A DNA stretch of 64,000 bases from positions 6,046,001 through 6,110,000 of the forward strand of contig NC_002678.2 in NCBI RefSeq assembly GCF_000009625.1, given 5' to 3'. The position numbers were made by a program, and so were the translations under genes. The notes below the pieces were generated by a model that saw only the letters and a list, made by a program, of their open reading frames with translations, was not told the origin of the DNA and ran no database searches. The first letter of the stretch is position 1; the number at the start of each line of letters is the position of its first letter. Shown here piece after piece: positions 1,198 through 18,580 of the stretch. Source of the DNA: Mesorhizobium japonicum MAFF 303099. GTDB lineage: Bacteria > Pseudomonadota > Alphaproteobacteria > Rhizobiales > Rhizobiaceae.

Positions 1198-2505
1198 TTA
1201 TATGTCCAGCGTGTGGTCGCGCTCCCATTGCGTGAAGTGCGAAGCATAGGAATTCCATTCCTGGTGCTTCAGCTTTAGGTAGGCCGACGAGAATTCCTCA
1301 CCCAGCGCCGCCTTGAGCGATTTGTCCTTGTCGAACTCGCGCAGTGCGTCGAGCAGGTTGAGCGGCAGTTTCGGCGCGCCCTTCACCGTGTGTCCGTGCT
1401 GGTACATGTCGATGTCGTAGCGCTTGCCGGGATCGGCCTTCGAGCGGATGCCGTCGAGGCCGGCGGCAATGATCACCGCCTGCAAGAGGTAGGGGTTTGC
1501 AGCACCGTCGGGCAGGCGCAGCTCGAAGCGGCCGGGGCCGGGCACGCGCACCATGTGAGTGCGGTTGTTGCCGGTCCAGGTCACCGTGTTCGGCGCCCAG
1601 GTCGCGCCTGAAATCGTGCGCGGCGCGTTGATGCGCTTGTAGGAATTGACCGTCGGGTTGGTGATCGCGGCTAGCGCGGAGGCATGCTTCATGATGCCAC
1701 CGAGGAAGTTCTTGCCCTTGGCCGACAGGCCGAGCTCCATCGAATTGTCGGCGAAGACATTGGTCTTGCCCGTCTCGTCCCACACCGAGATGTGGGCATG
1801 GCAGCCATTGCCGGTCAGGCCCTGGAAGGGTTTCGGCATGAAGGTGGCGCGCAGGCCGTGCTTCTCGGCCACCGACTTGACCATGAACTTGAAGAAGGAG
1901 TGCTTGTCGGCGGTGGCGAGCACGTCGTCGAAGGCCCAGTTCATCTCGAACTGGCCGTTGGCGTCTTCATGGTCATTCTGATAGGGCCCCCAGCCGAGCG
2001 CCAGCATGTGGTCGCAGATCTCGGCGATGACGTCGTAGCGGCGCATCACCGCCTGCTGGTCGTAACAGGGCTTTGAGGCCGTGTCGTATTGGTCAGAGAT
2101 GACGCTGCCGTCCGGCGAGATCAGGAAGAACTCGGCCTCGACGCCGGTCTTGACATGCATGCCGTCGCCGGCGGCTTCGGCGATCAGCCGCCTCAGCGTG
2201 TTGCGCGGCGTCTGGTCGACCTCCTTGTCGTCCATGATGCAGTTGGCGGCGACCCAGGCCACCTCCTTTTTCCATGGCAGCTGGATGACCGAGTCCGGAT
2301 CGGGCACCGCCAGCATGTCGGGATGCGCCGGCGTGAGATCAAGCCAGGTGGCGAAGCCGGCAAAGCCGGCGCCATCCTTCTGCATGTCGGCGATTGCCTG
2401 TGCCGGCACCAGCTTGGCGCGTTGCCCACCGAACAGGTCGGTGTAGGAAATCATGAAATATTTGACGCCGTTCTTTTTGGCGAAAGCGGCGAGATCGTTC
2501 CCCAT
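1198..2505 (-). CDS. gmaS: Gamma-glutamylmethylamide synthetase (glutamine synthetase family)
   Basis: A 435-residue glutamine-synthetase-fold enzyme. Visible GS features are VEAEFF near residue 123, the NGCHAHISVWDE metal-site region near residue 232, and the NRTHMVRVPGPGRFELRLPDG block near residues 314-334. The start ATG is preceded by GAGGAACTATA. A true glutamine synthetase would use ammonia; in this cluster, between mgsABC and an N-methylglutamate dehydrogenase gene, the family member expected is GmaS, which ligates monomethylamine to glutamate with ATP. The product is the methyl donor for N-methylglutamate synthase. A GlnT-type glutamine synthetase is the alternative, because rhizobial glnT can also sit beside split glutamate-synthase genes. 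The downstream amine dehydrogenase gene favours GmaS. Confidence 0.88.
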   Translation of the reverse strand: MGNDLAAFAKKNGVKYFMISYTDLFGGQRAKLVPAQAIADMQKDGAGFAGFATWLDLTPAHPDMLAVPDPDSVIQLPWKKEVAWVAANCIMDDKEVDQTPRNTLRRLIAEAAGDGMHVKTGVEAEFFLISPDGSVISDQYDTASKPCYDQQAVMRRYDVIAEICDHMLALGWGPYQNDHEDANGQFEMNWAFDDVLATADKHSFFKFMVKSVAEKHGLRATFMPKPFQGLTGNGCHAHISVWDETGKTNVFADNSMELGLSAKGKNFLGGIMKHASALAAITNPTVNSYKRINAPRTISGATWAPNTVTWTGNNRTHMVRVPGPGRFELRLPDGAANPYLLQAVIIAAGLDGIRSKADPGKRYDIDMYQHGHTVKGAPKLPLNLLDALREFDKDKSLKAALGEEFSSAYLKLKHQEWNSYASHFTQWERDHTLDI

Positions 2506-2540
2506 TATAGTTCCTCGCTTATGGTATTTTGGATGCTGTT

Positions 2541-3869
2541 TTAGAAGCCGTTCTTCCCCGGTATCCAGTTGGTGCCGGCGAGCGGCACGCCGGCCATGGC
2601 GGCGGCTTCGATGGTGAGCGCGACGAGATCCTCGGGTTCGAGATTGTGCAGGCTGTTCTTGCCGCAGGCGCGTGCGATTGTCTGCGCCTCGAGCGTCATC
2701 ACCTTCAGATAGTTGGCCAGTCGCCGTCCAGCAGCCACCGGATCGACCCGCTTCATCAGCTCCGGGTCCTGCGTGGTGATGCCGGCAGGGTCGCGTCCCT
2801 CGTGCCAGTCATCATAGGCGCCGGCAGTGGTGCCGAGCTCGTTATACTCCGCCTCCCAGCGGGGATCGTTGTCGCCGAGCGCGACGAGCGCCGCCGTGCC
2901 GATGGAGACCGCGTCGACGCCGAGCGCCAGCGCCTTGGCGACATCGGCGCCATTGCGGATGCCGCCCGAGACGATCAGCTGCACCTTGCGGTGCATGCCG
3001 AGATCCTGCAGCGCTTGTACCGCCGGCCTGATGCAGGCGAGCGTCGGCTGACCGACATTCTCGATGAACACTTCCTGCGTTGCCGCCGTGCCGCCCTGCA
3101 TGCCGTCGACGACGACGACATCGGCCCCGGCCTTCACCGCAAGGGCGGTGTCGTAATAGGGGCGGGCGCCGCCGACCTTGACGTAGATCGGCTTCTCCCA
3201 GTCGGTGATCTCGCGCAGCTCGAGGATCTTGATCTCGAGATCGTCCGGGCCGGTCCAGTCGGGATGGCGCGAGGCGGAGCGCTGGTCGATGCCTTTCGGC
3301 AGGGTACGCATCTCGGCAACGCGGTCGGAAATCTTCTGGCCAAGCAGCATGCCGCCGCCGCCCGGCTTGGCGCCCTGGCCGACGACCACTTCGATCGCAT
3401 CGGCGCGGCGCAGGTCGCGCAAATTCATGCCGTAGCGCGAGGGCAGATATTGGTAGACCAGCTGCTTGGAATGGCCGCGCTCTTCCTCGGTCATGCCGCC
3501 ATCGCCGGTCGTGGTCGAGGTGCCCGACAGCGTCGCGCCACGGCCGAGCGCTTCCTTGGCCGGGCCGGACAGCGAACCAAAGCTCATGCCGGCAATGGTG
3601 ATCGGGATCTTCAATTCGATCGGCTTCTTGGCGTGGCGCGAGCCGAGCACCACCGATGTGTCGCAGCGCTCGCGATAGCCTTCGAGCGGATAGCGCGAGA
3701 TCGAGGCGCCGAGGAATAGCAGGTCGTCGAAATGCGGCAGCTTGCGCTTGGCGCCGGCGCCCCGGATATCGTAGATGCCGGTCGCCGCGGCGCGGCGGAT
3801 TTCGGAAAGCGTGTAGTCGTCGAAGGTCGCGGATTTGCGCGGCGTCGTCGGCGGGTTGCGATAGGTCAT
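2541..3869 (-). CDS. mgsC: N-methylglutamate synthase subunit C (FMN-binding glutamate synthase domain)
   Basis: A 442-residue protein matching the FMN/Fe-S domain of glutamate synthase. The barrel carries KVGGARPYYDTALAVKAGAD followed by VVDGMQGGTAAT, and the phosphate-binding GGIRNGADVAKALALGVDAV. A CGKNSLHNL segment near residue 400 resembles the Fe-S cysteine region of the family. It starts 6 bases after mgsB, with GAGG before the ATG. With MgsA and MgsB it forms N-methylglutamate synthase, a glutamate synthase split into three subunits that makes N-methylglutamate from gamma-glutamylmethylamide or methylamine and glutamate. The homologous rhizobial name is GlxD; the amine context supports mgsC. 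Confidence 0.88.
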   Translation of the reverse strand: MTYRNPPTTPRKSATFDDYTLSEIRRAAATGIYDIRGAGAKRKLPHFDDLLFLGASISRYPLEGYRERCDTSVVLGSRHAKKPIELKIPITIAGMSFGSLSGPAKEALGRGATLSGTSTTTGDGGMTEEERGHSKQLVYQYLPSRYGMNLRDLRRADAIEVVVGQGAKPGGGGMLLGQKISDRVAEMRTLPKGIDQRSASRHPDWTGPDDLEIKILELREITDWEKPIYVKVGGARPYYDTALAVKAGADVVVVDGMQGGTAATQEVFIENVGQPTLACIRPAVQALQDLGMHRKVQLIVSGGIRNGADVAKALALGVDAVSIGTAALVALGDNDPRWEAEYNELGTTAGAYDDWHEGRDPAGITTQDPELMKRVDPVAAGRRLANYLKVMTLEAQTIARACGKNSLHNLEPEDLVALTIEAAAMAGVPLAGTNWIPGKNGF

Positions 3870-3875
3870 GCTGCC

Positions 3876-4607
3876 TCAATACGCGTCGGCGTTGTCGATA
3901 TTGAAATTGTAGAGGGTGCGCGCCGAGCCGTAGCGCTTGAACTCCGACGGCTTGACGCCGGTGACACCGGCGCGGTCGAGCAGGCCCTGCAGCAGTTCCA
4001 GGTGTTCGGCCCGCATCTCCTTGGCGATGCAGTCGGCACCCAGGCTGTCGACATTGCCGCGCACGAACAGCCGCGCCTCGTAGATGGAATCGCCGAGCGC
4101 ATCGCCGGCATCGCCTAGCACCACCAGATTGCCGGACTGCGCCATGAAGGCCGACATGTGGCCGATATTGCCATGCACGACGATATCGATGCCTTTCATC
4201 GAAATGCCGCAGCGCGACGAGGCATTTCCCTCGATGACCAGCAGGCCGCCCTTGCCGGTGGCTCCGGCATACTGGCTGGCGTCGCCTTTCACGATGATAG
4301 AACCCGACATCATGTTCTCGCCGACGCCGGGTCCGGCCGAACCGTGCACGGTGATTGTGCTGCCGGAATTCATGCCGCCGCAGTAATAGCCGACGCTGCC
4401 GCGCACATCGATGCTGACGGGCTGGTCGACGCCGACGGCGACCGAATGGCTGCCCTTCGGGTGCAGCACTTCCCATGCCGTTTCGTTGGAACCGGGCGTC
4501 AGATTGTGCAGCGCCTGGTTGAGCTCGCGCAGCGACGACACATCGAGATCGAAGATTCGCGAGGCCTGGTCGTGCGTCGCCGCCTTTGAAAGTTTGGTTG
4601 CCGGCAT
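3876..4607 (-). CDS. mgsB: N-methylglutamate synthase subunit B (GXGXG structural domain)
   Basis: A 243-residue protein resembling the C-terminal beta-helical GXGXG domain of glutamate synthase. Repeated short strands with glycine turns are visible, such as GSVGYYCGGMNSGSTITVHG, GPGVGENMMSG and GNIGHMSAFMAQSGNLVVLG. The frame stays open to 4664, but the ATG at 4607 (MPATKLSKA) lies just 4 bases beyond the mgsA stop with GGGAG upstream, so it is the likelier start. The domain is structural and helps hold the amidotransferase and synthase parts together. GlxC is the alternative name used in rhizobia. Confidence 0.86.
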   Translation of the reverse strand: MPATKLSKAATHDQASRIFDLDVSSLRELNQALHNLTPGSNETAWEVLHPKGSHSVAVGVDQPVSIDVRGSVGYYCGGMNSGSTITVHGSAGPGVGENMMSGSIIVKGDASQYAGATGKGGLLVIEGNASSRCGISMKGIDIVVHGNIGHMSAFMAQSGNLVVLGDAGDALGDSIYEARLFVRGNVDSLGADCIAKEMRAEHLELLQGLLDRAGVTGVKPSEFKRYGSARTLYNFNIDNADAY

Positions 4608-4611
4608 GAAC

Positions 4612-5508
4612 TCAATGCTCCCAGAAATAGACGGTTGCGGGTTCCGGTTCCCAGACCCTCGCATTGTCTATGCCGGGCAGTTTGGTCAGAGCGCGATATT
4701 CCGAGCCGAAGGCGACATACTGGTCGGTTTCGGCCATGACGGCGGGCTTGCAGGCGATCGGGTCGCGGACGACGCCAAAGCCGTTCTTGGTGCCGACGAC
4801 GAAGGTGAAGAAGCCGTCGAGGTCCGAAAGCGTGCCTTCCAGCGCCTCGCCGAGGTTCTTGCCATGCGCCATCTGGGACGAGAGATAGGCGGCGGCGACC
4901 TCGGTATCGTTCTCGGTCTCGAATTTCATGCCCTCGCGGATCAGCTCGCGGCGGACATTGTTGTGGTTGGAGAGTGAGCCATTGTGCACCAGGCATTGAT
5001 CGGCGCCGGTCGAGAACGGATGCGCGCCCATCGTCGTCACCGCCGATTCCGTTGCCATGCGGGTGTGGCCGATGCCATGCGTGCCGGTCATCTTGCGGAC
5101 GTCGAAGCGATCGACAACCGCCTCCGGCAGTCCGACTTCCTTGTAGATCTCGACCACGTCGCCGGCGCCCATGATGCGGATGTCGGGGCGCAGCGTCTGC
5201 ATCGCCTCGCGGGCTTCGTCGATCTTGGCCGGCGCAGTCCTGACGACGGCATGGGTCGACTTCACCGCAATGCTCACAGGCGCGCCGATGGCCTTGGCGA
5301 GCTCGATATCGAGGTCGCGAAAATCGCTCGCGGGCTTCGCCGACTGGATGGTGATCTTGGCTTCATTCCTGGAAGGCGCGCCATAGATGGCGATGCCTGC
5401 GCTGTCGGGGCCGCGATCGCTGAGCGAGACAAGCATTTCCGACAACATTGCGCCGAGCTTGGGCTCCAGCGACTTGTCCTTTAAAAACAGTCCGACAATT
5501 CCACACAT
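4612..5508 (-). CDS. mgsA: N-methylglutamate synthase subunit A (class II glutamine amidotransferase domain)
   Basis: A 298-residue class II glutamine amidotransferase. The protein begins MCGIVGLFL, so Cys2 becomes the N-terminal nucleophile after methionine removal. Other Ntn-type features are the GHTRMATES segment near residue 146 and VHNGSLSNHNN near residue 174. The start has a strong GGGAGG site 5 bases upstream. It opens the mgsABC-gmaS-mgd run, with short gaps all the way down to base 1, so one transcript is likely. In the N-methylglutamate pathway this subunit would process gamma-glutamylmethylamide or glutamine. GlxB is the homologous rhizobial name. Confidence 0.87.
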   Translation of the reverse strand: MCGIVGLFLKDKSLEPKLGAMLSEMLVSLSDRGPDSAGIAIYGAPSRNEAKITIQSAKPASDFRDLDIELAKAIGAPVSIAVKSTHAVVRTAPAKIDEAREAMQTLRPDIRIMGAGDVVEIYKEVGLPEAVVDRFDVRKMTGTHGIGHTRMATESAVTTMGAHPFSTGADQCLVHNGSLSNHNNVRRELIREGMKFETENDTEVAAAYLSSQMAHGKNLGEALEGTLSDLDGFFTFVVGTKNGFGVVRDPIACKPAVMAETDQYVAFGSEYRALTKLPGIDNARVWEPEPATVYFWEH

Positions 5509-5594: not shown

Positions 5595-5924
5595 TTACGT
5601 ATGCGGCGTGATGCCGCTTTGCGAATTATCACTGCCCTGCGCGGCATTGTGAACCCATTGGGCATGGCGGATGCGGGCGAGCTTGTAGGCGTCGAGGATC
5701 GACAGCGCATAGATCAGGAAGCCTCCGGCATGACGGCCGATGAAGCTGGCGTCGGGCGGTGCGATCTTGGCGGTTACCCAAGCCAGGATCACCATGAAGA
5801 AAAGAAACTGCAGCCCACGCACCGGCACGCCCAGGATGACATGGCCGCTTGCCGGCAGCACGATTGCCGAGCCCAGGACGAGATAAGGGCTTACCGGCGC
5901 CGGCTGCGTGTTCGAACTGGTCAT
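5595..5924 (-). CDS. Small membrane protein of unknown function
   Basis: A 109-residue protein that I do not recognise. It has a hydrophobic N-terminal half (YLVLGSAIVLPASGHVILG, then GLQFLFFMVILAWV) and a third hydrophobic stretch around FLIYALSILDAYKLAR, suggesting two to three membrane segments. The frame is open further upstream, but the ATG at 5924 overlaps the stop of the preceding gene as ATGA, which fixes this start through translational coupling. It is the last gene of a six-gene membrane-protein run that ends 86 bases before mgsA. A role in amine uptake or envelope adaptation would be a guess from position only. Confidence 0.75.
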   Translation of the reverse strand: MTSSNTQPAPVSPYLVLGSAIVLPASGHVILGVPVRGLQFLFFMVILAWVTAKIAPPDASFIGRHAGGFLIYALSILDAYKLARIRHAQWVHNAAQGSDNSQSGITPHT

Positions 5925-6610
5925 GCGGCCTGCCGTTCGCTTTTGTTGATGGCGTCGCGCAGCGCCGAGAGGGAGGCGAGCAGCCGCTCGATCAACGCAG
6001 GATCGATCTGCGCCTCGGCGAACGCGGCCTGCCGGAAAACGCCGTAGCGCGCCCGTTCGGCCTCGGCCAGCAGCCACACGATGCGCGCGCCGTTTGGCGT
6101 GATCAGCAGTTCCTTGGCGCGCCCTTCCGAAAAGGGTTCCAGATGTTCGGCGATGATACCTTGCGGGAAACGTGTGCCGCGGCGGTCGGTCCGCAGCACC
6201 GCCTCAGCCGGAAATCCCGGAGCCTTCGGCAGCGTATGCTGGAGGTGATCGAAATTGGAGAAGGTCGTCGGCGAGCCCGGCCGCATCATCATGTCGAACG
6301 TCGCTGGCACGGCCACCTTTTCGGTGATCGTAACGCTGAGCCAGCGCGCCGGGAGTTTTCGTGTCGCCAGCGTATCGACGATGGTGCGCAACTGAACGCG
6401 CTGGCCGTTCCACGAGCCTTCCCAGGTGATGACGCCGGCGGTGCCGTCCGAAACATCGGCGGCGTCGGCGACGACGGTGCGGATGCTGGCCTCGTCGGCG
6501 GCGAGCGCAGCCAATGCCCTGTTGCGGCTGCGGTGCGCAAGCCACGCAAGATGGAGGACGAGAGCCAGGACAATCGCCCCGGCGAGCAGCGCTGATGTCA
6601 CTTCGGACAT
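5921..6610 (-). CDS. Membrane-anchored protein of unknown function
   Basis: A 229-residue protein with one N-terminal membrane segment (about residues 7-25, ALLAGAIVLALVLHLAWLAH) followed by a soluble domain of about 200 residues, probably periplasmic or cytoplasmic-face. The soluble part contains ITWEGSWNGQRVQLRTIVDT and PARWLSVTITEKV, which look like beta-sheet. No catalytic motif was recognised. It overlaps the next gene by four bases (ATGA), and lies 45 bases below the APC permease, so all three are probably co-transcribed. The pairing with the following small membrane protein suggests the two act together. Confidence 0.75.
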   Translation of the reverse strand: MSEVTSALLAGAIVLALVLHLAWLAHRSRNRALAALAADEASIRTVVADAADVSDGTAGVITWEGSWNGQRVQLRTIVDTLATRKLPARWLSVTITEKVAVPATFDMMMRPGSPTTFSNFDHLQHTLPKAPGFPAEAVLRTDRRGTRFPQGIIAEHLEPFSEGRAKELLITPNGARIVWLLAEAERARYGVFRQAAFAEAQIDPALIERLLASLSALRDAINKSERQAA

Positions 6611-6655
6611 TTTGTCATGTCCGGCCCGCCTGGGATCGGGGCGGGCCGTCTCCCA

Positions 6656-8062
6656 TCAATAGCCCTGCGGTTTCGGCCACGGCATGGTGAACTGGTCGCC
6701 GCGCCGCACGAATTTGTAGCGGTAGAAATGGAACCACAGCGAGATCAGGAAATAGAAGATGGTCATTGCGATCAGCTGCGAGCCGAAACCGAGGAAGATG
6801 GCGAAGAAGGTCACCACGCATAGGCAGAACAGCACGATCGCCGGCAGCGGATGGAACGGGTGCGTGTAGCCGCGGCGGATCGTGTCGAGCGGCCACTTCT
6901 TGCGGAACATCATGATGTTGATGCTCATGAAGGTGTATTGCAGCACGCCCGACAGGATCGAGAAGGTGATTGCCTGGTTGAGGTCGGCGATGAAGGCGAA
7001 GGCGAGCGCAATCGGCAGCAGGAACAGGATCGAGCGGTAAGGCGTGCGGTATTTCGGATGCACCGCCGAGAACCAGCTCGGCAGATAACGGTCGCGGCCG
7101 AGCGAGAACCATGCGCGCGCCGCGTCGTTGATGCAGCCATTGGCCGATGCCAATGCCGCCAGCAGCGTCGCGATGAACAAGAGGTTCTCGAGCAGCGGGC
7201 TGCCGGTCAGCTTGCCGGCGTCCCACAGCGGATAATAGGTGATACCGAGATATTCCCAGGGCATCAGCGAGGCACAGACATACCAGGTCATGGCGGCGGC
7301 GATCAGCAGCGTGATCATGCCGGCCATGGTTCCGTAGGGCAGGGAGCGGGCCGGCGAGCGCACTTCCTCGGCCGCCTGCGTGGTGCCCTCGATGCCGAGA
7401 TAGTACCAGATGCCGAACTGGAAGGCGGCAATGACGCCGATCCAGCCATAGGGCAGGGCGTTTTCGGGGGTGACCAGCTCGTTGAGCTTCAGCACGGCGC
7501 CCTGCGTCCACGGGCTGACCGAGAAGAACAGGATGACGATCGAGACATAGGCGATTGCGGTGATGACGAAGTTGACGTTCAGCGTCATCAGCACGCCGCG
7601 ATAGTTGAGCCAGGCCAGCACGACGATGGTGGCGGCGATGAAGGAATTGTGGGTGAGCCCTTCGACGCCCGCCTTTGAGACGATGGTGTCGCCAAGCAGG
7701 ATGGCGTCGGACACTTCAAGCATCGTGTAGGCAAACACCAGGAACAACGCGACATTGAATGCCATCAGCGGCCCGACAATGTGCTTTGCCTGCGCATACT
7801 GGCCGCCGGCGGCGGCGACCGTCGATGTCACTTCGGAATCGATCATCGCGACCGAGGTGTAGAGCAATCCGACCACCCAGCAGACGATCAGCGCGGCAAG
7901 CGCGCCGCCCTTGTCGGCGGCGAAATTCCAGCCGGTGAATTCGCCGACCAGCACGATGCCGACGCCGAGCGCCCAGACATGGGCCGGGCCGAGCACCCGC
8001 AGCAGCGAGACCCTGTCGCCGTGGATTGTCGTCGTTTGTGCCGTTTCAACCGCAGCCGTCAT
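6656..8062 (-). CDS. APC-superfamily amino acid/amine permease
   Basis: A 468-residue APC-superfamily transporter with about 12 hydrophobic segments. Early segments include LGVGIVLVGEFTGWNFAADK near residues 33-52, matching the unwound first helix of this fold, and a consensus-like EGTTQAAEEVRSPARSLPYG lies near residue 225. The frame extends to a GTG at 8074, but GTGGGGA there forms the ribosome-binding site for the ATG at 8062, which I prefer. It sits between the mgs genes and the dimethylamine monooxygenase genes, so methylamine, a related amine or a glutamyl-amide is the likely cargo (inference). It differs from the AmtB-type methylammonium transporters often linked to this pathway. Confidence 0.85.
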   Translation of the reverse strand: MTAAVETAQTTTIHGDRVSLLRVLGPAHVWALGVGIVLVGEFTGWNFAADKGGALAALIVCWVVGLLYTSVAMIDSEVTSTVAAAGGQYAQAKHIVGPLMAFNVALFLVFAYTMLEVSDAILLGDTIVSKAGVEGLTHNSFIAATIVVLAWLNYRGVLMTLNVNFVITAIAYVSIVILFFSVSPWTQGAVLKLNELVTPENALPYGWIGVIAAFQFGIWYYLGIEGTTQAAEEVRSPARSLPYGTMAGMITLLIAAAMTWYVCASLMPWEYLGITYYPLWDAGKLTGSPLLENLLFIATLLAALASANGCINDAARAWFSLGRDRYLPSWFSAVHPKYRTPYRSILFLLPIALAFAFIADLNQAITFSILSGVLQYTFMSINIMMFRKKWPLDTIRRGYTHPFHPLPAIVLFCLCVVTFFAIFLGFGSQLIAMTIFYFLISLWFHFYRYKFVRRGDQFTMPWPKPQGY

Positions 8063-8074
8063 GTCAGTCCCCAC

Positions 8075-8236
8075 TCAGATCCGGTGTTTTTCGGAAACTG
8101 CTTCAAGCTCGCCTTCGCGCGACGAGGTCAGAACGTCCTCGGAATAGGTCGTGTCGACCTTGAACCAGTCGTAGAGCATCCACAAAGCGAGCACGATCGA
8201 GATGCTCCAGCATGCGTAAGAGAGTGAAATCCACAT
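8075..8236 (-). CDS. 53-residue single-span membrane protein
   Basis: A short gene immediately upstream of the APC permease, ending 12 bases before its start codon. The product begins MWISLSYACWSISIVLALWM, one membrane helix, followed by a charged acidic tail (YSEDVLTSSREGELEAVSEK). A GGGGG ribosome-binding site lies 7 bases before the ATG, as strong as those of its neighbours. I do not recognise the protein. Small single-span proteins beside secondary transporters are often accessory subunits, which would fit this position. Confidence 0.7.
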   Translation of the reverse strand: MWISLSYACWSISIVLALWMLYDWFKVDTTYSEDVLTSSREGELEAVSEKHRI

Positions 8237-8269
8237 CGTGCGTCCCCCGATTGCTTGTCTTCGGAACTC

Positions 8270-8647
8270 TTACTTGTCGTCGAACTTTTCGTTGATGACG
8301 TCGCGATATTCGCGGTCGGATGCGCGGAACAGGAAGACGAAATAGCCGATCAGCACCGCCGCCATAATGATCAGCGTCGGCCAGTCGATGACATAGTGGA
8401 AGCGGTTCTGGATGATGTCGTGCGCGGTCTCGGGTGTGTAGCCGAGCCTTTCCCAGATCGAGGCCATGGTCGGGTTCTGGCCAAGCGCTTCCCAGGTCTT
8501 GGCGTCGAGCGCGTCGATGGATTTGGCAGCTCCGGCAAGGCCAAGCTTCAGCGGCAGCCACAGCGCCACGAAGATGGCGACAACGACGACGACGATATCG
8601 AAAACCTGGCCGGCCTTGCTCTGCTCCGGCGGCGTATAGCGGGACAT
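8270..8647 (-). CDS. Two-span membrane protein of unknown function
   Basis: A 125-residue protein with a membrane segment near residues 14-36 (VFDIVVVVVAIFVALWLPLKLG) and a second near residues 90-107 (LIIMAAVLIGYFVFLFRA), separated by a polar loop of about 50 residues with DALDAKTWEALGQNPTMAS. The short charged tail is REYRDVINEKFDDK. No family was recognised. It lies 12 bases after the preceding small gene and 33 bases before the 53-residue gene, so it belongs to the same transcript as the permease. Confidence 0.75.
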   Translation of the reverse strand: MSRYTPPEQSKAGQVFDIVVVVVAIFVALWLPLKLGLAGAAKSIDALDAKTWEALGQNPTMASIWERLGYTPETAHDIIQNRFHYVIDWPTLIIMAAVLIGYFVFLFRASDREYRDVINEKFDDK

Positions 8648-8659
8648 TTCTTGTACCCC

Positions 8660-8947
8660 TCAGGACTGGCGGTTGCGGGATGCGTCGGCGTTCTTGATGT
8701 CGAGGCCGTAGATGAAGTCCTTGTCTTCCTTGTAGTGTTTGACCATCGCCAGGATCGCGGCCGTGTTGAAGATCAGCACGGCGGCAGCGGCAATCGCGAC
8801 GACGGCCCTGATGCCGGCGTGCGGGATGTGGGGCCATGTCATGAAGAGGACGAAGAGGATCGTCGCCCACAAGCAGATGATCAGCAGCGCGGATCCGCGC
8901 AAATCGGAACGGTACAGCGCCTCGATGCGCTGCTGCAGGTCTGACAT
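8660..8947 (-). CDS. Two-span membrane protein of unknown function, first gene of the permease operon
   Basis: A 95-residue protein with two membrane segments (SALLIICLWATILFVLFMTW and GIRAVVAIAAAAVLIFNTAA) and a charged C-terminus. The frame is open to 8986, but the ATG at 8947 has GGGGA 8 bases upstream and gives an ordinary N-terminus (MSDLQQRIEALYRSD), so I use it. It is the first gene leftward from the divergent promoter region shared with dmmDABC. Function unknown; the company of an amine permease and two other small membrane proteins suggests a multi-part membrane complex. Confidence 0.75.
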   Translation of the reverse strand: MSDLQQRIEALYRSDLRGSALLIICLWATILFVLFMTWPHIPHAGIRAVVAIAAAAVLIFNTAAILAMVKHYKEDKDFIYGLDIKNADASRNRQS

Positions 8948-9232: not shown

Positions 9233-10366
9233 ATGACGGCATCCTGGAGATTTTCGACCCTGGCGGATCGCCATCGCGCGCTGGGTTCGAAGCTCGAAGA
9301 CTGGAGCGGCATGGGCACCGCCTGGACCTACGACAAGGATGCCGACGAAGAATACATCGCCATCCGCACCAAGGCCGGGCTAATGGATGTGTCGGGCCTA
9401 AAGAAGGTTCACATTACAGGGCCGCACGCCTCGCATCTCATCGACCTCGCCACGACGCGCGATGTCGAAAAGATCTACCCCGGCAAATCGGCCTATGCCT
9501 GCATGCTGAACGAGGCGGGAAAATTCACCGACGACTGCATCCTCTACCGCACCGGCCCGAACAGCTGGATGGTCGTGCATGGCTCCGGCACCGGCCATGA
9601 GGAATTGCAGCGGGCCGCGATCGGCCGCGATGTCTCGCTACGCTTCGATGACAATCTGCACGATCTGTCGCTGCAGGGACCAACCGCGGTCGACTATCTG
9701 GCCAAACATGTGCCGGGGATTCGCGATCTCAACTATTTCCATCACATGCAGACGCAGCTCTTCGGTTTCCCGGTCATGATCTCGCGCACCGGCTACACCG
9801 GCGAGCGCGGCTACGAAATCTTCTGCCGCGGCCAGGATACCGGCACGATCTGGGACAGGATCCTCGACGAGGGCAAGAGCGCCGGCATCATTCCCTGCCG
9901 CTTCACCACACTCGATATGCTGCGTGTCGAAAGCTACCTGCTGTTCTACCCCTACGACAATTCGCAAAAATATCCCTTCGAGAACGAAGGCCCCGGCGAC
10001 ACGTTGTGGGAACTCGGCCTCGACTTCACCGTCAGCCCCGGCAAGACCGGCTTCCGTGGCGCGGAGGAGCACTATCGCCTGAAGGGCAAGGAGCGCTTCA
10101 AGATTTTTGGCGTTCTGCTCGACGGCAAGGAGCCGGCCGATGAGGGCGCGCCGGTCTATCGCGACGGCAAAAAGGTCGGCGTGGTGACCTGCGCCATGTA
10201 TTCGCAGCTGGTCAAGAAATCGATGGGCATCGCCCGTCTCGATGTCGACTGTGCGGTCAAGGACACCAAGCTCGAAATCCGCAACAAGAGCGGTTCGATC
10301 AAGGCGACGGCGCAGCCACTACCGTTCGATGATCCGAAAAAGACCAAGCGCACCGCCAAGGGTTAA
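9233..10366 (+). CDS. dmmD: GcvT-like tetrahydrofolate-dependent subunit of dimethylamine monooxygenase
   Basis: A 377-residue aminomethyltransferase (GcvT) family protein. The N-terminal folate-binding half contains GLMDVSGLKKVHITGPHASHLID (about residues 50-72), and the middle carries SRTGYTGERGYEIFC near residue 183, both typical of the family. The C-terminal barrel ends in a basic tail. A GGAGG site sits 10 bases before the ATG. In haem-dependent oxidative N-demethylase systems the delta subunit of this type takes the formaldehyde released from the methyl group onto tetrahydrofolate. It is the first gene of a four-gene run. At 377 residues it is far too short to be the TMAO demethylase Tdm, which adds a large N-terminal domain. 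Confidence 0.85.
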   Translation: MTASWRFSTLADRHRALGSKLEDWSGMGTAWTYDKDADEEYIAIRTKAGLMDVSGLKKVHITGPHASHLIDLATTRDVEKIYPGKSAYACMLNEAGKFTDDCILYRTGPNSWMVVHGSGTGHEELQRAAIGRDVSLRFDDNLHDLSLQGPTAVDYLAKHVPGIRDLNYFHHMQTQLFGFPVMISRTGYTGERGYEIFCRGQDTGTIWDRILDEGKSAGIIPCRFTTLDMLRVESYLLFYPYDNSQKYPFENEGPGDTLWELGLDFTVSPGKTGFRGAEEHYRLKGKERFKIFGVLLDGKEPADEGAPVYRDGKKVGVVTCAMYSQLVKKSMGIARLDVDCAVKDTKLEIRNKSGSIKATAQPLPFDDPKKTKRTAKG

Positions 10367-10406
10367 GGCATCATCAGCAGCGAGGGATTTAAGGCACAGA
10401 GAGAGA

Positions 10407-11003
10407 ATGGCAGCCAAGACGATCATCAGCCGGCCTATTTATGGAGCCCTGTCTCCGCAGCCCGGCAAGCATCATCTGTTCATCGCCGATGCGGAAGGCG
10501 CGCTGGCGATCGTTGATATGGCAAAGATGGCTCCGCCCGGTTTCTTCGGCGGCGCGGAAATCGTCTTCATCCCAGGCCGCGAAGGCAAGCATGTCGCCGC
10601 CCTCGAAGCGCTGAAGCCGGCGCAGTTCCATCAGGCGCCGTCCTTCTCCAGCCTGCTGCCACGCCTCAAGCAGACGCTGGGCAATGCGCATATGGGCCTG
10701 CGCCTCTACCTCGCTGGCACCGAGGGCCTGATCGGCCAGGCCATGCAGGTGGCGCTCGAAGCCGGCATCGACCACACCTCCATGCAGACAGAGCATCGCG
10801 GCTCGCTGGCGCGGCGCATGCAGTGTGTGCACTGCAAGGGCATCACCGAGAACGTGACGACGCAGCCCGCCACCTGTTCGCATTGCGGCCTGCTGCTTCT
10901 TGTGCGCGATCACTATTCCAGGCGGCTGGCGGCTTTCCAGGGCGTCTGCATCAACGCCGAGGATCGCTCGGAGATTCCTCCAATGGAGGAGGCCTTCCCA
11001 TGA
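10407..11003 (+). CDS. dmmA: Dimethylamine monooxygenase subunit DmmA family protein
   Basis: A 198-residue protein matching the DmmA family. The N-terminal part (about residues 1-125) contains GHTS-like flavodoxin-style segments such as GLRLYLAGTEGLIGQAMQVA, which I read as a reductase-like domain. The C-terminal part has two CxxC pairs (CVHCKG and CSHCG, about residues 141-161), a probable metal-binding knuckle. The frame is open much further upstream, but the ATG at 10407, with GAGAGAG in front and after the dmmD stop, gives the family length. Its stop overlaps the dmmB start by four bases (ATGA). Its exact role in electron transfer or assembly is not fixed by the sequence. Confidence 0.82.
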   Translation: MAAKTIISRPIYGALSPQPGKHHLFIADAEGALAIVDMAKMAPPGFFGGAEIVFIPGREGKHVAALEALKPAQFHQAPSFSSLLPRLKQTLGNAHMGLRLYLAGTEGLIGQAMQVALEAGIDHTSMQTEHRGSLARRMQCVHCKGITENVTTQPATCSHCGLLLLVRDHYSRRLAAFQGVCINAEDRSEIPPMEEAFP

Positions 11004-11965
11004 GCACCGGCACCACAAAACTCGATGTCGTCGTCAGCGATGTCGTCCCGGTCAACGAACTGGTCACCCGCTTCCATTTCCGCCGGCGCGACGGCGAGCT
11101 GTTGCCGACCTTTTCCGGCGGTGCCCATGTCGTGGTCGAGATGCGCGACGGCGACCGCACCCGGCTCAATCCCTATTCGCTGATGGGTTCCCCGCTCGAC
11201 ACACGCGAATACACCATCTCGGTGCGCCGTGACGATGTCGGGCGTGGCGGCTCGCTGTTCATGCACAGGTCCGTCAAGCCGGGCCTGGAGATGGTGATCA
11301 GCTATCCCGTCAATCTGTTCTCGCTCGACCTGCGTGCCAAAAAACATCTGATGCTGGCCGGCGGCATCGGCATCACGCCCTTCATGGCGCAGACAGCGCA
11401 ACTGGCGGGCGAGGGCGGCAATTTCGAACTGCACTATACCTGCCGCACCGCCTCGCTCGGCACCTATGCCGACGTGCTGCGGGAGCGCTACGACAGGCGC
11501 ATCAGGCTCTACCATGACGATCGTGACGAGCGCATCGATCTTGATCGATTGCTGTCGACGCAGCCGCTCGGCACGCATCTCTATGTCTGCGGCCCGGCCG
11601 GCATGATCAATTGGGTGCGCGACCGCGCGGCCGCCTTGGGCTGGCCATCGGAGGCCGTGCATTTCGAGCATTTCGCGGCCCCCCAGCCCGGCCTGCCCTT
11701 CGACGTGACGCTCGCGGTCAGCGGCAAGACCATCCGCGTCGATGAACAGCAGAGCCTGCTCGAAGCCATCGAGGCGGCCGGCGTCGATCCGCCCTATCTC
11801 TGCCGCGGCGGCGTCTGTGGCCAGTGCGAGACCAACGTCATCTCTTACGACGGCAAGTTCATCCACAACGACCACTGGCTGAGCGAGGAAGACCATCGCT
11901 CCGGCTGCAAGATCATGCCGTGCGTGTCGCGCTTCGAGGGCCGGTCGCTGGTGCTGGAGCGGTGA
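11000..11965 (+). CDS. dmmB: Dimethylamine monooxygenase reductase subunit (FMN, NAD(P)H, [2Fe-2S])
   Basis: A 321-residue phthalate-dioxygenase-reductase type oxidoreductase. It has an FMN-binding NPYSLMGSP motif near residue 56, a nucleotide-binding AGGIGITPF near residue 117, the CGPAGM motif near residue 197, and a C-terminal plant-type ferredoxin domain with CRGGVCGQC near residues 269-277 and a later fourth cysteine. It would pass electrons from NAD(P)H to the haem subunit encoded by dmmC. The start is fixed by the ATGA overlap with dmmA. Similar reductases serve vanillate demethylase; the dmm neighbours settle the role here. Confidence 0.88.
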   Translation: MSTGTTKLDVVVSDVVPVNELVTRFHFRRRDGELLPTFSGGAHVVVEMRDGDRTRLNPYSLMGSPLDTREYTISVRRDDVGRGGSLFMHRSVKPGLEMVISYPVNLFSLDLRAKKHLMLAGGIGITPFMAQTAQLAGEGGNFELHYTCRTASLGTYADVLRERYDRRIRLYHDDRDERIDLDRLLSTQPLGTHLYVCGPAGMINWVRDRAAALGWPSEAVHFEHFAAPQPGLPFDVTLAVSGKTIRVDEQQSLLEAIEAAGVDPPYLCRGGVCGQCETNVISYDGKFIHNDHWLSEEDHRSGCKIMPCVSRFEGRSLVLER

Positions 11966-12056
11966 AGCATTTTGCAGCCAAGTGGATACACTTGGCGTCG
12001 CAGAAATGCGGCTGAAACAAATAGATAAAGCGGGCATCCCGCTCTAGGAGGAAATC

Positions 12057-13097
12057 ATGGGCATCACCTTTCGCAAGGAAACCTTCCGCGACGATTTCAC
12101 CTTCAGGAACAGCCCCGAGCACATCAGGCGGTTTCCGTTCCCGTTCCACGAAGATGCCTACATGTATGCGGTCAACATCGAGCCGCATGTCGTCGGGCCG
12201 AAGGGCAGCGTGCTGGAGAACCTGATCGACGTCGACGAGCACTATGTCGCCGAGATGCAGGACCGCGCTTTGGTGCTCGCCGAGGACCCGCTGCGCTGCC
12301 AGTCGCTGCCGCACATGACGCTCGCCGGCTGGGATCTGCTCGAACTGCTCATGGAACAGCAGGCCCTTGGCTATCCCGAGCATTTCACGCTGACGCGTGA
12401 CGGCGACCGCTGGCGCTGGATCAACCGGCCGCTTGGCATCGATGACACCTTCACCTTCGGCGACACCTCGACCCTGCCTTATGGTCCGATGGAATACATC
12501 ACCCGCCAGAGCCAGGGCGATTTCTGCATCCTCGACCAGCGCGACGGCAATCTGTGGATGGATGCCGGCATGGTCACCACCCAGGCCGACTGGTCGCTCG
12601 ATTTCGACATCGGCATGAATTTTTTCGAGTGGCACGCGCCGGTGCCGCTGGCGCATGAGAAGGGCATTTTCACGCGGGCGCTGAAATTCCTCACCAACAT
12701 CCAGCAGGGCAAGCCGGCGCGGCGCCTCAACTGGACGATGACCATCAATCCGCGCCTCGATACCAGCCCGGAAAATTACCACAAATGGGGACCGGACCGC
12801 GCGACGGTGACCCCGGAGAATGTCGGCGACAAGGTGCATCTGCGCGTCGAGCTGCAAAGCTTCTGGCGCCTGCCGCGCTCCAACGGCATCGTCTTCCCGA
12901 TCCGCTGCTACCTGATCAAGATGGACGAGCTGGTGACGCAGCCGAAATGGGCGCGCCGCCTGCACCGCGTCATCCGCGATCTGCCCGAGGAACTCGCCAC
13001 CTACAAGGGCCTCACGCGCTATCGGCCGACGCTGGTGGAATGGCTGTCGAAGTTGGACGATGGGAGCGCGACGAGCCCGGGGTTTGGGCCTGATTAA
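12057..13097 (+). CDS. dmmC: Haem-dependent oxidative N-demethylase alpha subunit (DUF3445 family)
   Basis: A 346-residue protein of the DUF3445 (HODM alpha) family, a PAS-like fold that binds haem and is the oxygenase centre of dimethylamine monooxygenase. Visible family segments are PFPFHEDAYMYAVNIEPH near the N-terminus, ITRQSQGDFCILDQRDGNLW in the middle and LRVELQSFWRLPRSNGIVF near the C-terminus. The start has AGGAGG 6 bases upstream. It would oxidise one methyl group of dimethylamine, giving monomethylamine and formaldehyde. It is the last gene of dmmDABC, 91 bases after dmmB, and its stop codon overlaps the stop of the opposing regulator gene. Confidence 0.87.
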   Translation: MGITFRKETFRDDFTFRNSPEHIRRFPFPFHEDAYMYAVNIEPHVVGPKGSVLENLIDVDEHYVAEMQDRALVLAEDPLRCQSLPHMTLAGWDLLELLMEQQALGYPEHFTLTRDGDRWRWINRPLGIDDTFTFGDTSTLPYGPMEYITRQSQGDFCILDQRDGNLWMDAGMVTTQADWSLDFDIGMNFFEWHAPVPLAHEKGIFTRALKFLTNIQQGKPARRLNWTMTINPRLDTSPENYHKWGPDRATVTPENVGDKVHLRVELQSFWRLPRSNGIVFPIRCYLIKMDELVTQPKWARRLHRVIRDLPEELATYKGLTRYRPTLVEWLSKLDDGSATSPGFGPD

Positions 13098-13807
13098 CCC
13101 GCGCTGTTCTGCGGATAGCAGATGATCGACAGATACCGCATCGGCAGCTTCGTCAACTGCTCCGGCCCATGCGGCGCATCGGCGTCGAAGAACAGGCTGT
13201 CGCCGGGCTTCATCGGATAAAGGTTGCTGCCGTGCCGGTAAACGACCTCGCCTTCAAGCATGTAGAGGAACTCCATGCCCTCATGCTGGAAGGTCGGGAA
13301 CACGTCCGAATCTTCGGTCAGCGTGATCAGGTAGGGTTCGACGACGACACCGCTGGTGTTCGACCCGATATGGCCGAGCAGATTGTACTGGTGGCCGGCG
13401 CGCGTGCCGCGGCGCTCGACATCCAGCCCTTCGCCGGCCTTGACGAAGACAGCACTGCGCTCCTCCTCGAAGCGACGGAAGAAGGCGGTGACAGGAACGC
13501 CGAGCGCCCGCGACAGCGCCTGCAGCGTGGTCAGCGACGGAGAGGTTATGCCGTTCTCGATCTTCGACAGCATGCCCAGCGAAATGTCGGTGGCGACGGC
13601 GAGATCGGCGACGGTGATGCCGAGCTTCTTGCGGAACGCCCGCACCTCGCGGCCGATGGCCACCTCCAACACCTTCTCGCGTGTATCACGGATGGCGTGC
13701 GGGTTCTGCGTCAGCGGTGCGCGGATGGTCTTGCCGTCGGCCGAGACCTTTGGCTGGGGCTTCGGCTTGGCGCTGGCAAGCCCGGCCTTGGAACTGTCTT
13801 TAGCCAT
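13094..13807 (-). CDS. XRE-family transcriptional regulator with C-terminal cupin domain
   Basis: A 237-residue regulator. A basic, proline-rich N-terminal leader of about 45 residues precedes a helix-turn-helix domain (about 53-108, with ITVADLAVATDISLGMLSKI). The C-terminal cupin barrel (about 165-235) contains HEGMEFLYMLEGEVVYRHG. This XRE-cupin layout is that of PuuR/SutR-like regulators, where the cupin is thought to sense a small ligand. It lies between dmmC and tmm, convergent with the first and divergent from the second, so it is the obvious candidate regulator of the methylated-amine genes. Its last four bases are shared with the dmmC stop. Confidence 0.88.
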   Translation of the reverse strand: MAKDSSKAGLASAKPKPQPKVSADGKTIRAPLTQNPHAIRDTREKVLEVAIGREVRAFRKKLGITVADLAVATDISLGMLSKIENGITSPSLTTLQALSRALGVPVTAFFRRFEEERSAVFVKAGEGLDVERRGTRAGHQYNLLGHIGSNTSGVVVEPYLITLTEDSDVFPTFQHEGMEFLYMLEGEVVYRHGSNLYPMKPGDSLFFDADAPHGPEQLTKLPMRYLSIICYPQNSAG

Positions 13808-15447: not shown

Positions 15448-17427
15448 CTATCCCAGCCTTGCCCGCGCCTTCGCCGTCCAGGCGTTGAACAGCCGGTCGG
15501 CGACGATGCCGATGAAGGCGATTGCCAGGCCCGCGACAATGCCGCGGCCGGAATCGGCTTTGGACAGTGCAATGAACACTTCCTGGCCGAGATCGCGCGT
15601 GCCGACCATGGCGCAGATGATGATCATCGCTAGCGCCATCAGGATGGTCTGGTTGACGCCGAGCATGATCTCCGGCAGCGCCAGCGGCAATTGCACGCGA
15701 AAGAAGGTCTGGCGCGGCGTGCAGCCCGACACCTTGGCCGCCTCGATCAGCGCCGGCGGCACCTGTCTTATGCCGTGATTGGTGTAGCGGATCGCCGGCA
15801 CCACGGCGAAGGCTATCGTTGCGATCATGGCGGTCACATCGCCGACGCGGAACAGCATCACCACCGGAATGATGAAGCAGAAGGATGGAAGCACCTGCAG
15901 CGTGTCGATGATGGGTGTGACGATCTTCTCGAAACGGTCGCTGCGCGCCGCCATCAGCCCGATCGGGATGCCGATCAGGCAGGCGATGAAGGCCGAGATG
16001 CCGCAGAGATAGACGGTGGCCATGGTCTTTTCCCACAGGCCGGTGACGGCGCAGAAGACGGTCAGCGCGGCGACCAGGGCCGCCAAGCGCAGGCCCGAGA
16101 GCTGATAGCCGGCAAGGCCGAGCAGGAACACCGCGCCCAGCCACGGAAAGCCTTCGCAGAAGGCACGCACCGGATTGAGCACATTGAGGATCAGCGCCAC
16201 GCGAAAGGCTTCGATCGCATCGAAGAAGTTGATCGTCACCCAGTTCACCGCCGCCTTCCACAGCGGCGCTGTGGTGAAGGTGATCGCCTTCGGCACCGCC
16301 GCGAAAGCCGGCACGAGCAGGCCGAGCAGCGTGGTGACGGAAAGGATGGCGATCGCCAGCGTCAGATTGGGGTAGCGCCGCCAGAAGCTCGGGTCCACCG
16401 CCTGATGAACATGGCCCTTCGCCTGCTTGTGGGCTATGGCCTGACTCAGCCGGTCGAGCGCGATTGCCAGCGCCACGATGGCGAGACCCGCCTCCATCGC
16501 CTCGCCGACCTTCAGCGCGCGCAGCGCCAGGAGCACGTCATAGCCGAGGCCGCCGGCGCCGATCATCGAGGCGATGATCACCATGTTGAGCGCCAGCATG
16601 ATAACCTGGTTGACGCCGACCATCAGCGTCGGCCGTGCGGAGGGCAGCAGCACCCGCCACAGTTTCTGCCGCGCCGTGCAGCCGGCCATGTCGCTGAATT
16701 CGCCGATCTCCAGGGGCACGCGCGTCAGGCCGAGCATCGTCGCCCGAACCATCGGCGGCGTGGCGAAAATAGCTGTGGCGATCATCGCCGACACCGGGCT
16801 GTTGCCGAACAGGAGCAGCATCGGGATGAGATAGGCGAAGGTCGGGATCGTCTGCATCAGGTCGAGGGCAGGAGAGACGATGAGCCTTTCCGCCCATGGC
16901 TTGCGCCAGGCCCAGATGCCGGCGAACAGGCCAGTGACAATGCAAAACGGCACGGCGATCGAGATCAGCGCCAGCGTCAGCATGGCGCTGGTCCATTGGC
17001 CGAACAGCGCGATGTAGAGGAAGCAACCGCCGACCAGCAGGCTGAGTTTACGGCCGCCCACGGCATGGCCGGCGATGAAGGCGACAGCGCAGACGCCAAC
17101 CCAGGAGAGGCGCGGCAGGACATAGGCGTCCGCGCCATGGCCGATCTTGAAATTCTTGGCCAGGAGATTGAGCGCGAAATCGAGCGGCACGCCGAGCACC
17201 GCGGTGATCGAGCGGGTCAGCCATGACAGGTTCGATTTGATCCAGCCCATCAGCGCGCTGACCCAGTCGGCGAAGGGCACGACGGCGCTGGCCGGATAGT
17301 CGACTGCCCAAGGGACGCTGTCCTGCAGCAGGAACACCACGAGCACGGCGGCGAGGGCGAGCGCCCAGACAAGCAGCCACCGCTGAAGCGGCGGCCTCGG
17401 CTCGCTGGTGCTTGCCGTCACCGTCAT
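15448..17427 (-). CDS. tmoW: ABC transporter permease, two fused transmembrane domains (probable TMAO importer)
   Basis: A 659-residue permease of the glycine betaine/proline (OpuA/ProW) class in which two permease domains are fused. Two matching EAA-loop regions are visible: GCTARQKLWRVLLPSARPTL with VNQVIMLALNM near residue 260, and GCTPRQTFFRVQLPLALPEI with VNQTILMALAM near residue 570. About a dozen membrane segments surround them. Its start overlaps the ATP-binding gene by four bases. It is convergent with tmm, with a 19-base gap. Fused permeases of this kind occur in TmoXVW TMAO importers; choline or betaine transport is the alternative. Confidence 0.8.
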   Translation of the reverse strand: MTVTASTSEPRPPLQRWLLVWALALAAVLVVFLLQDSVPWAVDYPASAVVPFADWVSALMGWIKSNLSWLTRSITAVLGVPLDFALNLLAKNFKIGHGADAYVLPRLSWVGVCAVAFIAGHAVGGRKLSLLVGGCFLYIALFGQWTSAMLTLALISIAVPFCIVTGLFAGIWAWRKPWAERLIVSPALDLMQTIPTFAYLIPMLLLFGNSPVSAMIATAIFATPPMVRATMLGLTRVPLEIGEFSDMAGCTARQKLWRVLLPSARPTLMVGVNQVIMLALNMVIIASMIGAGGLGYDVLLALRALKVGEAMEAGLAIVALAIALDRLSQAIAHKQAKGHVHQAVDPSFWRRYPNLTLAIAILSVTTLLGLLVPAFAAVPKAITFTTAPLWKAAVNWVTINFFDAIEAFRVALILNVLNPVRAFCEGFPWLGAVFLLGLAGYQLSGLRLAALVAALTVFCAVTGLWEKTMATVYLCGISAFIACLIGIPIGLMAARSDRFEKIVTPIIDTLQVLPSFCFIIPVVMLFRVGDVTAMIATIAFAVVPAIRYTNHGIRQVPPALIEAAKVSGCTPRQTFFRVQLPLALPEIMLGVNQTILMALAMIIICAMVGTRDLGQEVFIALSKADSGRGIVAGLAIAFIGIVADRLFNAWTAKARARLG

Positions 17428-18503
17428 GCGCCGGCCCTCGCGTGCTCGATGCCGGCCAGCAGGTCGATGACCGCTTGCGGCGTCACTTCGCCGATCGGCT
17501 TGCCGGTGCCGTTGACCACGGCGAACGGCTTGCCGGCGGAGACGATGCTGGCCGAGAAACTGGCGATCTTGGCATCCGGGGCTACCGTGCCCCCATGCTC
17601 AGCGCCGTCGCAAGCGCGCATCAGGCTGCGCGCCGAAATCACCTTGGCGCGGTCGACGTTGCGGGTGAACTCGGCGACATAATCGGTCGCCGGGTTGACC
17701 ACCAGTTCCTCCGGCGTACCGATCTGGATGACCTCGCCGTCCTTCATGATGGCGATGCGGTCGGCAAGCCTGATCGCCTCGTCGAAATCATGGGTGATGA
17801 AGACGATGGTCTTGTGCAGCATGGTCTGGAGCCGCATCAATTCGTCCTGCATCTCGCGGCGGATCAGCGGATCGAGCGCGGAGAACGGCTCGTCGAGGAA
17901 CCAGATCTCCGGTTTGGTCGCCAGGCTGCGCGCGATGCCGACGCGCTGCTGCTGGCCGCCGGACAATTCGCGTGGGTAGAAATGCTCGCGGCCGTGCAAG
18001 CCGACCAGTTCGATGACCTCGCGGGCGCGTGCCTCGCGTGTTGCCCGGTCCTGCCCCTGGATGCTGAGCGGAAAGGCGATGTTGTCGAGCACATTGAGAT
18101 GCGGCAGCAGCGCGAAATTCTGGAACACCATGCCCATGCGGTGGCGGCGCAATTCGATGAGCGCCGCATCGGAAATCTTGAGCAGGTCCTTGCCTTCGAA
18201 TTCGACCTTGCCGTGGCTCGGTTCGACCAGCCGCGACATGCAGCGCACCAATGTCGATTTCCCGGAGCCCGACAGGCCCATGATGATGAAGATCTCGCCC
18301 TGCCGGATTTCGAGATCGACCGCGCGCACGGCGCCGACCAGTCCGGCAGAAGTGACATCGGCCATGCTGGCCTTGCCGTCGCGCTCGCGGATGAAACTGG
18401 CTGCGTTCGTCCCGAACAGCTTCCACACATTGCGGCAGGCAAGTTTTACCGGGCGGTCGTTGGTGCCCTTTTGCGTCGATCCCCGTTCAGTCCCGTCCGT
18501 CAT
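17424..18503 (-). CDS. tmoV: ABC transporter ATP-binding protein (ProV/OpuAA type, probable TMAO importer)
   Basis: A 359-residue ATPase with Walker A GLSGSGKST near residue 76, signature LSGGQQQRVGIA, Walker B IWFLDEPFSALD and switch histidine ITHDFDEA. A C-terminal extension of about 100 residues after NVDRAKV is the place where ProV-type proteins carry regulatory CBS domains. The frame opens at 18545, but the ATG at 18503 has AGAAGGA with 7 bases spacing, so I use it. It lies between the binding-protein and permease genes. The TMAO assignment rests on tmm next door. Confidence 0.82.
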   Translation of the reverse strand: MTDGTERGSTQKGTNDRPVKLACRNVWKLFGTNAASFIRERDGKASMADVTSAGLVGAVRAVDLEIRQGEIFIIMGLSGSGKSTLVRCMSRLVEPSHGKVEFEGKDLLKISDAALIELRRHRMGMVFQNFALLPHLNVLDNIAFPLSIQGQDRATREARAREVIELVGLHGREHFYPRELSGGQQQRVGIARSLATKPEIWFLDEPFSALDPLIRREMQDELMRLQTMLHKTIVFITHDFDEAIRLADRIAIMKDGEVIQIGTPEELVVNPATDYVAEFTRNVDRAKVISARSLMRACDGAEHGGTVAPDAKIASFSASIVSAGKPFAVVNGTGKPIGEVTPQAVIDLLAGIEHARAGA

Positions 18504-18580
18504 CCAATCGTCCTTCTGGAACATCAAGATTTGAGGCCCGGCCATTCAACGGCCGGGTCTCGCTTTTCCAGTCGGAACGA

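Follow-up and report, generated by a model that had tools for sequence, protein, structure and literature searches.

Can a carrier of the APC superfamily, whose twelve-span fold is usually taken as self-sufficient, depend on a set of dedicated membrane partners? The question is raised by six genes in a 64,000-nucleotide stretch of the Mesorhizobium japonicum MAFF 303099 genome (contig NC_002678.2, positions 6,046,001 to 6,110,000; hereafter the window), in which an APC permease is encoded together with five other membrane proteins, called here s95, s125, s53, m229 and m109, between genes for dimethylamine monooxygenase (dmm) and genes of the N-methylglutamate pathway (mgs, gmaS). As a source of carbon and nitrogen, methylamine is widespread; the enzymes that degrade it are known, and methylotrophs have for decades been described as taking it up inducibly. 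A preliminary description of this DNA read the six genes as a multi-subunit amine transporter, or as one coupled to a sensor. Comparison of the genes across bacterial genomes and plasmids indicates that they very probably constitute one functional unit. We favour, as moderately probable, an APC carrier of several subunits that transports methylammonium or a closely similar small amine, with methylammonium, by a narrow balance, as the main substrate.

Results

Co-occurrence and order of the six genes

The six genes were compared by tblastn with related loci: 80 from the genome_contigs collection, 16 from plasmids and G-numbered genomes, and 13 from one family of the G-numbered genomes, 109 in all. 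The 80 are the best 80 of 260, picked by the permease, which is therefore present there by construction, and most of the 109 belong to Mesorhizobium, where counts are not independent. All 109 loci preserve the order and strand of those genes that they contain, and 102 contain all six; their permeases are 61-98% identical to that of the window. Five of the seven incomplete loci are cut by contig ends (L069, L078, L081, L109 and L115), and in the other two (L137 and L143) s53 alone is missing at the tblastn cut-off, an s53-like open reading frame being visible by eye.

The same picture emerged from six single-gene protein searches of 72,556 plasmid records, run at E limits of 1e-5 for s125, 1e-80 for the permease, 1 for s53 and 1e-3 each for m109, m229 and s95. 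Each search matched 22 records, the accessions were identical in all six, and at those limits no record of this collection showed one of the genes without the other five. The 22 records come from seven genera (Paracoccus, Pseudohalocynthiibacter, Sinorhizobium, Pararhizobium, Rhizobium, Aminobacter and Paraburkholderia, as given by the s125 search), nine of them from Aminobacter, and do not represent 22 independent cases; gene context was viewed for 13, of which five are unannotated in the stretch and were judged by tblastn alone. The six-gene order persists in Hyphomicrobiales, Paracoccaceae and Burkholderiales. Among genomes, s125 occurs in 6 of 385 of a class sample and in 11 of 299 of a phylum sample, nine of the latter from the genus of the window (its own genome is included in both counts). 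One genome (G707) has two module copies, L140 and L141, only one of which adjoins gmaS. That the six genes form a genetic unit is well supported by the shared plasmids and the constant order.

The partner genes encode conserved proteins

All six genes are under purifying selection. Median ratios of nonsynonymous to synonymous substitution against the related loci are 0.18 for s95 (n=78), 0.07 for s125 (n=75), 0.17 for s53 (n=78), 0.05 for the permease (n=40), 0.22 for m229 (n=72) and 0.21 for m109 (n=52), where n is what remained of at most 80 rows after length-mismatched or out-of-range pairs had been removed. These ratios, the conserved order and the existence of distant homologues rule out the small open reading frames as spurious. 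The permease passes the curated Pfam cut-offs of the APC superfamily across most of its length (PF00324, AA_permease, 109.3 bits against a cut-off of 24.6; PF13520, AA_permease_2, 98.9 bits against 27). Five unrecognised proteins had been claimed around it, and this stands: s95, s125, s53, m229 and m109 reach no Pfam or NCBIfam profile cut-off, nor do they match PHROGs at E<=0.01. An origin of the module as phage cargo was rejected on this last result and on the lack of any s125 match in 50,697 phage records (E<=0.01).

The s125 and s53 proteins contain long invariant stretches. At E<=0.001, 909 homologues of s125 are present in a protein database; PDB holds no sequence relative at E<=1, and the structure model of s125 was of low confidence (predicted local distance difference test 69, predicted template modelling score 0.33) and was not used for fold searching. 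In four loci of one genus (L110-L113) s125 appears as two hidden Markov model pieces within one longer frame of 163-183 amino acids, which suggests that the two membrane spans are separated by an insert there. For m229 no Pfam family was found at E<=1, and UniRef labels two m229 proteins (P0177 and P0182) DUF3137. It is predicted to consist of a helix and a beta-rich domain, and the predicted fold of the soluble domain resembles that of TtfA (9% identity), with translocon-associated chains and secretion chaperones also among the predicted neighbours.

From their co-occurrence and order we consider it fairly likely that the six proteins stand in a stable complex. It is possible, though with distinctly less probability, that the small proteins serve the assembly, stability or quality control of the permease, which would then work alone once mature. 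Such a role would be in keeping with the predicted fold neighbours of m229, and with a published case: for the bacterial APC carrier GkApcT, cholesterol hemisuccinate raised the melting point solely when the single-helix protein MgtS was present (PMC5803215). The plasmids matched by the five partners, however, are precisely those with the permease, and invariant stretches as long as those of s125 and s53 seem more than a transient factor would require.

Association with the methylamine step

The genes around the module vary from lineage to lineage but come back to the N-methylglutamate pathway. GmaS or MgsC was found at 400 bits or more in the fetched stretch of 82 of the 109 loci, a majority dominated by one genus. 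These loci include Paracoccus aminophilus pAMI6 (L101), Sinorhizobium meliloti (L102), a genome like that of Methylocella silvestris (L131), four genomes of one other genus (L110-L113), L132, L134, L136, L138, L141 and L143; two further Sinorhizobium plasmids beyond the 109 loci (L158 and L160) show the same. Among the 27 loci under this mark, six have partial mgs or gmaS genes at the end of a stretch or contig (L003, L036, L063, L064, L133 and L139), and in another three (L078, L106 and L116) there are genes of dmm or tmm. At the level of whole genomes, GmaS occurs in 41 of the 248 genomes of a family sample and the module permease in 13, all of them within the 41 (hypergeometric P=1e-11 if kinship is ignored, 0.003 if the count is made by genus). 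In a hand-chosen set of 30 module genomes, from which the genome of the window and six others of its genus that also have the module (G425, G429, G443, G489, G532 and G632) were left out, GmaS is present in 28, DmmC in 18 and MauA in 2. It is thus the methylamine step, and not dimethylamine or trimethylamine, that constantly accompanies the module. MauA-type methylamine oxidation was considered for the genomes lacking GmaS and rejected, neither of the two MauA genomes being G071 or G895.

Several observations weigh against this link. Eighteen of the 109 loci show no mgs/gmaS, dmm or tmm gene at full strength in the fetched stretch, and L159 and L161 are likewise without these genes; in several genomes GmaS is distant from the module or on another contig; and GmaS occurs without the module in 28 of 41 GmaS genomes of the family sample and in 61 of 66 of the class sample. 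The module is optional for GmaS genomes and is not always next to amine genes. Several of the 18 loci have GmaS elsewhere in the genome. Homologues lying mainly away from amine genes, which the preliminary description had named as the result that would speak against it, are mostly not what was found, but the 18 loci keep the outcome from being a clean one.

These same loci leave some room for a carrier of another small amine, such as ethanolamine or a polyamine, that was repeatedly recruited into methylamine clusters. A homospermidine-synthase-like open reading frame (L073:12768-14198, by eye) lies close downstream of one module, and in Pararhizobium a glutamine-synthetase-family gene (L103:8073-9425), 26% identical to GmaS and perhaps encoding a gamma-glutamylation enzyme for another amine, directly precedes the module. 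We regard this alternative as improbable, since GmaS is present somewhere in nearly all of the chosen module genomes.

The permease is a discrete APC subfamily

In APC carriers, GTG-type motifs of the first transmembrane helix (TM1) hold the carboxylate of the amino acid. GkApcT has a first membrane helix with such a GTG motif. In the module permeases the aligned TM1 stretch reads V-G-E-(F/Y), and all 14 sequences compared share G40, E41, G44 and W45. An acidic residue, E or D, follows the G of the TM1 pattern GExxGW in 7 of 7 aligned sequences, three of them annotated eat; this is our own comparison and not a published definition. Judged from this alignment, an acidic side chain at this point would suit a cationic amine without a carboxylate. 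The best NCBIfam match of the permease is the ethanolamine permease model TIGR00908 (170.9 bits, under the equivalog cut-off of 381.75 bits), and both groups have the acidic residue and GW in TM1. They differ in sequence, identity being 25-30%, and in company: relaxing the plasmid search with the permease to 1e-25 adds just four ethanolamine permeases of about 27% identity, on records outside the 22 that carry the five partners. By these comparisons of sequence the module permease is a discrete APC subfamily. MtmP, MtbP and similar proteins of methanogens carry the name of mono- or dimethylamine permeases (PMC8196204 and PMC3017947); in one genome they were so named for the methyltransferase genes nearby. 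They are archaeal and belong to another methylamine pathway, and no MtmP-type model is among the NCBIfam matches of the module permease.

Amino acids are the usual substrates of APC carriers, and the constant genomic partner of the module is a pathway whose intermediates are amino acids. Transport of gamma-glutamylmethylamide, N-methylglutamate or glutamate in or out of the cell, in place of methylamine, has these two points in its favour. It is nonetheless doubtful, for the acidic TM1 residue shared with the ethanolamine permeases argues for a substrate free of carboxylate, and the best profile match, though below its cut-off, is an ethanolamine permease.

Equally doubtful is a carrier of trimethylamine, trimethylamine N-oxide (TMAO) or dimethylamine equivalent to TmoP of M. 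silvestris, reportedly identified as a TMAO permease by Zhu in 2014. The two permeases share the APC superfamily and the methylated-amine clusters of the same bacteria, and the module adjoins dmm or tmm in the window, in an S. meliloti plasmid and in Paraburkholderia. TmoP is cited in PMC5520151 and PMC4543880. It has some 570 amino acids against 468 for the module permease, however, and there is no significant overall similarity. In the M. silvestris-like genome G721 a permease between dmm genes (L152:6912-8654) aligns with the module permease only at E=0.023 (BLASTP, 24% over 107 amino acids), whereas its alignments with TmoP-like permeases reach 62% (P. aminophilus) and 52% (Paraburkholderia). 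G721 has its module permease at a separate locus adjoining mgsABC-gmaS, away from the tmm/dmm/TmoP cluster, and none of the five partners matched beside the TmoP-like gene of this genome. Identity of the permease with TmoP is ruled out by the lack of full-length similarity and by this separate locus. P. aminophilus and two Paraburkholderia plasmids have both a TmoP homologue and the module; on the latter (L106 and L162) the module, a dmmD-like gene and the TmoP homologue are consecutive, so that two distinct APC carriers are paired. Twelve of the 30 chosen module genomes, moreover, lack DmmC. In the window itself an OpuAC-type ATP-binding cassette (ABC) transporter, which we take to resemble TmoXVW, adjoins tmm, and TMAO uptake is therefore probably served already in this strain.

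A gene for an XRE-cupin protein lies near the module or mgs in 75 of the 109 loci, including L110-L113, L131, L136, L138 and L141, and it also accompanies them in L158 and L160; this protein is likely a regulator of the methylamine cluster in these lineages. That the module is a transporter-like sensor (transceptor) reporting amine to this regulator would account for their proximity but is very unlikely, because the six proteins contain no kinase, cyclase or other signalling domain in Pfam or NCBIfam, the regulator is a separate protein with helix-turn-helix and cupin domains, and uptake explains the association more simply. Of the two forms of transporter in the preliminary description, the multi-component one fits the plasmid, gene-order and GmaS data, and the sensor-coupled one found no support.

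Organisation of the locus

The host genome comprises 7.6 Mb in three contigs, and its closest relatives in genome_contigs are Mesorhizobium. The six reading frames are packed between dmm and mgs as first described (Table 1). They are transcribed in the order s95, s125, s53, permease, m229 and m109, with intergenic distances of 12, 33, 12, 45 and -4 nucleotides. The short gaps, and the start of mgsA 86 nucleotides past m109, indicate that the module probably heads an operon continuing through mgsABC and gmaS; mgsA is likely in the same operon. Scans for promoters and terminators gave signals at chance level only. Ribosome-binding-like motifs (GGGGAC/GGGGGAC) precede s95 and s53, in agreement with the strong ribosome-binding site first noted even for the 53-residue gene. 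Elsewhere, on plasmids of Aminobacter and Pseudohalocynthiibacter (L104, L105 and L161), the module is followed at a distance of about 3-6 kb by genes of the homogentisate pathway (hmgA), and two Aminobacter plasmids have glyA and ppc 6.5-8 kb from it.

Table 1. Genes of the module and neighbouring features, in window coordinates
Feature	Position	Strand	Description
s95	8660..8947	-	95 amino acids; hydrophobic segments 18-36 and 48-66; module gene 1
s125	8270..8647	-	125 amino acids; hydrophobic segments 15-33 and 89-107; loop of ~55 residues between
s53	8075..8236	-	53 amino acids; one span; strongly conserved tail LTSSREGE(I/L)EA
APC permease	6656..8062	-	468 amino acids from ATG; in-frame GTG at 8074 would give 472; module core
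m229	5921..6610	-	229 amino acids; N-terminal membrane helix and predicted soluble domain of TtfA-like fold
m109	5595..5924	-	109 amino acids; small membrane protein; conserved pattern P..GHV...RGL.FLFF...DAYK.AR
mgsA (context)	4612..5508	-	co-directional, downstream of m109
mgsB, mgsC, gmaS (context)	1198..4664	-	N-methylglutamate pathway
dmmD, dmmA, dmmB, dmmC (context)	9233..13097	+	divergent; dimethylamine monooxygenase; dmmD starts at 9233
XRE-cupin regulator (context)	13094..13807	-	helix-turn-helix and cupin domains; recurs near module/mgs
OpuAC-type ABC transporter (context)	15448-19555		binding protein, ATPase and 659-residue permease; adjoins tmm

Discussion

The physical complex, its substrate, the direction of transport, the coupling ion or counter-substrate and the role of each small protein are what we infer in the following scheme. 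The six proteins would form one inner-membrane transport complex with the APC permease as its carrier, surrounded by s95, s125, s53 and m109 as small membrane subunits. The m229 protein would be a membrane-anchored accessory subunit, its soluble domain probably cytoplasmic, and may stabilise or enable the carrier in the way that TtfA serves MmpL3. The substrate delivered to GmaS and MgsABC, the enzymes of the N-methylglutamate pathway, would be methylammonium or a small amine much like it, a substrate that transporters of the Amt family can carry too in the case of methylammonium. Coupling could be by proton symport, by uniport or by exchange against ammonium. More speculatively, and with modest expectation, the module may be a methylammonium carrier of six components and, as such, the first transporter of the APC superfamily known to require five membrane partners of its own, and possibly a methylammonium-in/ammonium-out exchanger; if so, it would both feed the pathway and remove surplus ammonium arising from a growth substrate with one nitrogen per carbon.

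The APC fold and the N-methylglutamate pathway were already known. The literature searched for multi-subunit APC transporters and methylamine carriers, which covered little of the subscription literature and was in part accessible only as excerpts, names neither the module nor its set of five partners nor the permease subfamily, and assigns no dedicated methylamine carrier to bacteria of the N-methylglutamate pathway. In Methyloversatilis universalis FAM5, amino-acid permeases are reported as induced on methylamine; they are absent from Table 3 of that work, and no link to the module is established. The module is a testable candidate for methylamine uptake in these bacteria, and it raises the prospect of APC carriers that occur as obligate assemblies of six proteins. 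If this is true, annotators would gain a set of markers, and structural biology a new type of complex.

Known assemblies offer three points of comparison. The SLC7-SLC3 heteromeric transporters combine an APC carrier with a dedicated membrane-anchored partner, as the module would, but the SLC3 ectodomain is large and unlike the predicted helix and beta-rich, TtfA-like domain of m229. MmpL3 is a lipid transporter of a superfamily other than APC. TtfA (PDB 6t84) is described as its accessory protein (PMC6593404), and is related to m229 by similarity of predicted fold and not by close sequence. In GkApcT, crystallised together with MgtS (PDB 5oqt/6f34; PMC5803215), a small protein of one membrane span likewise packs against an APC carrier from a bacterium; MgtS, however, came from the Escherichia coli expression host and is not co-encoded with its carrier, whereas the permease of the module has five co-encoded partners.

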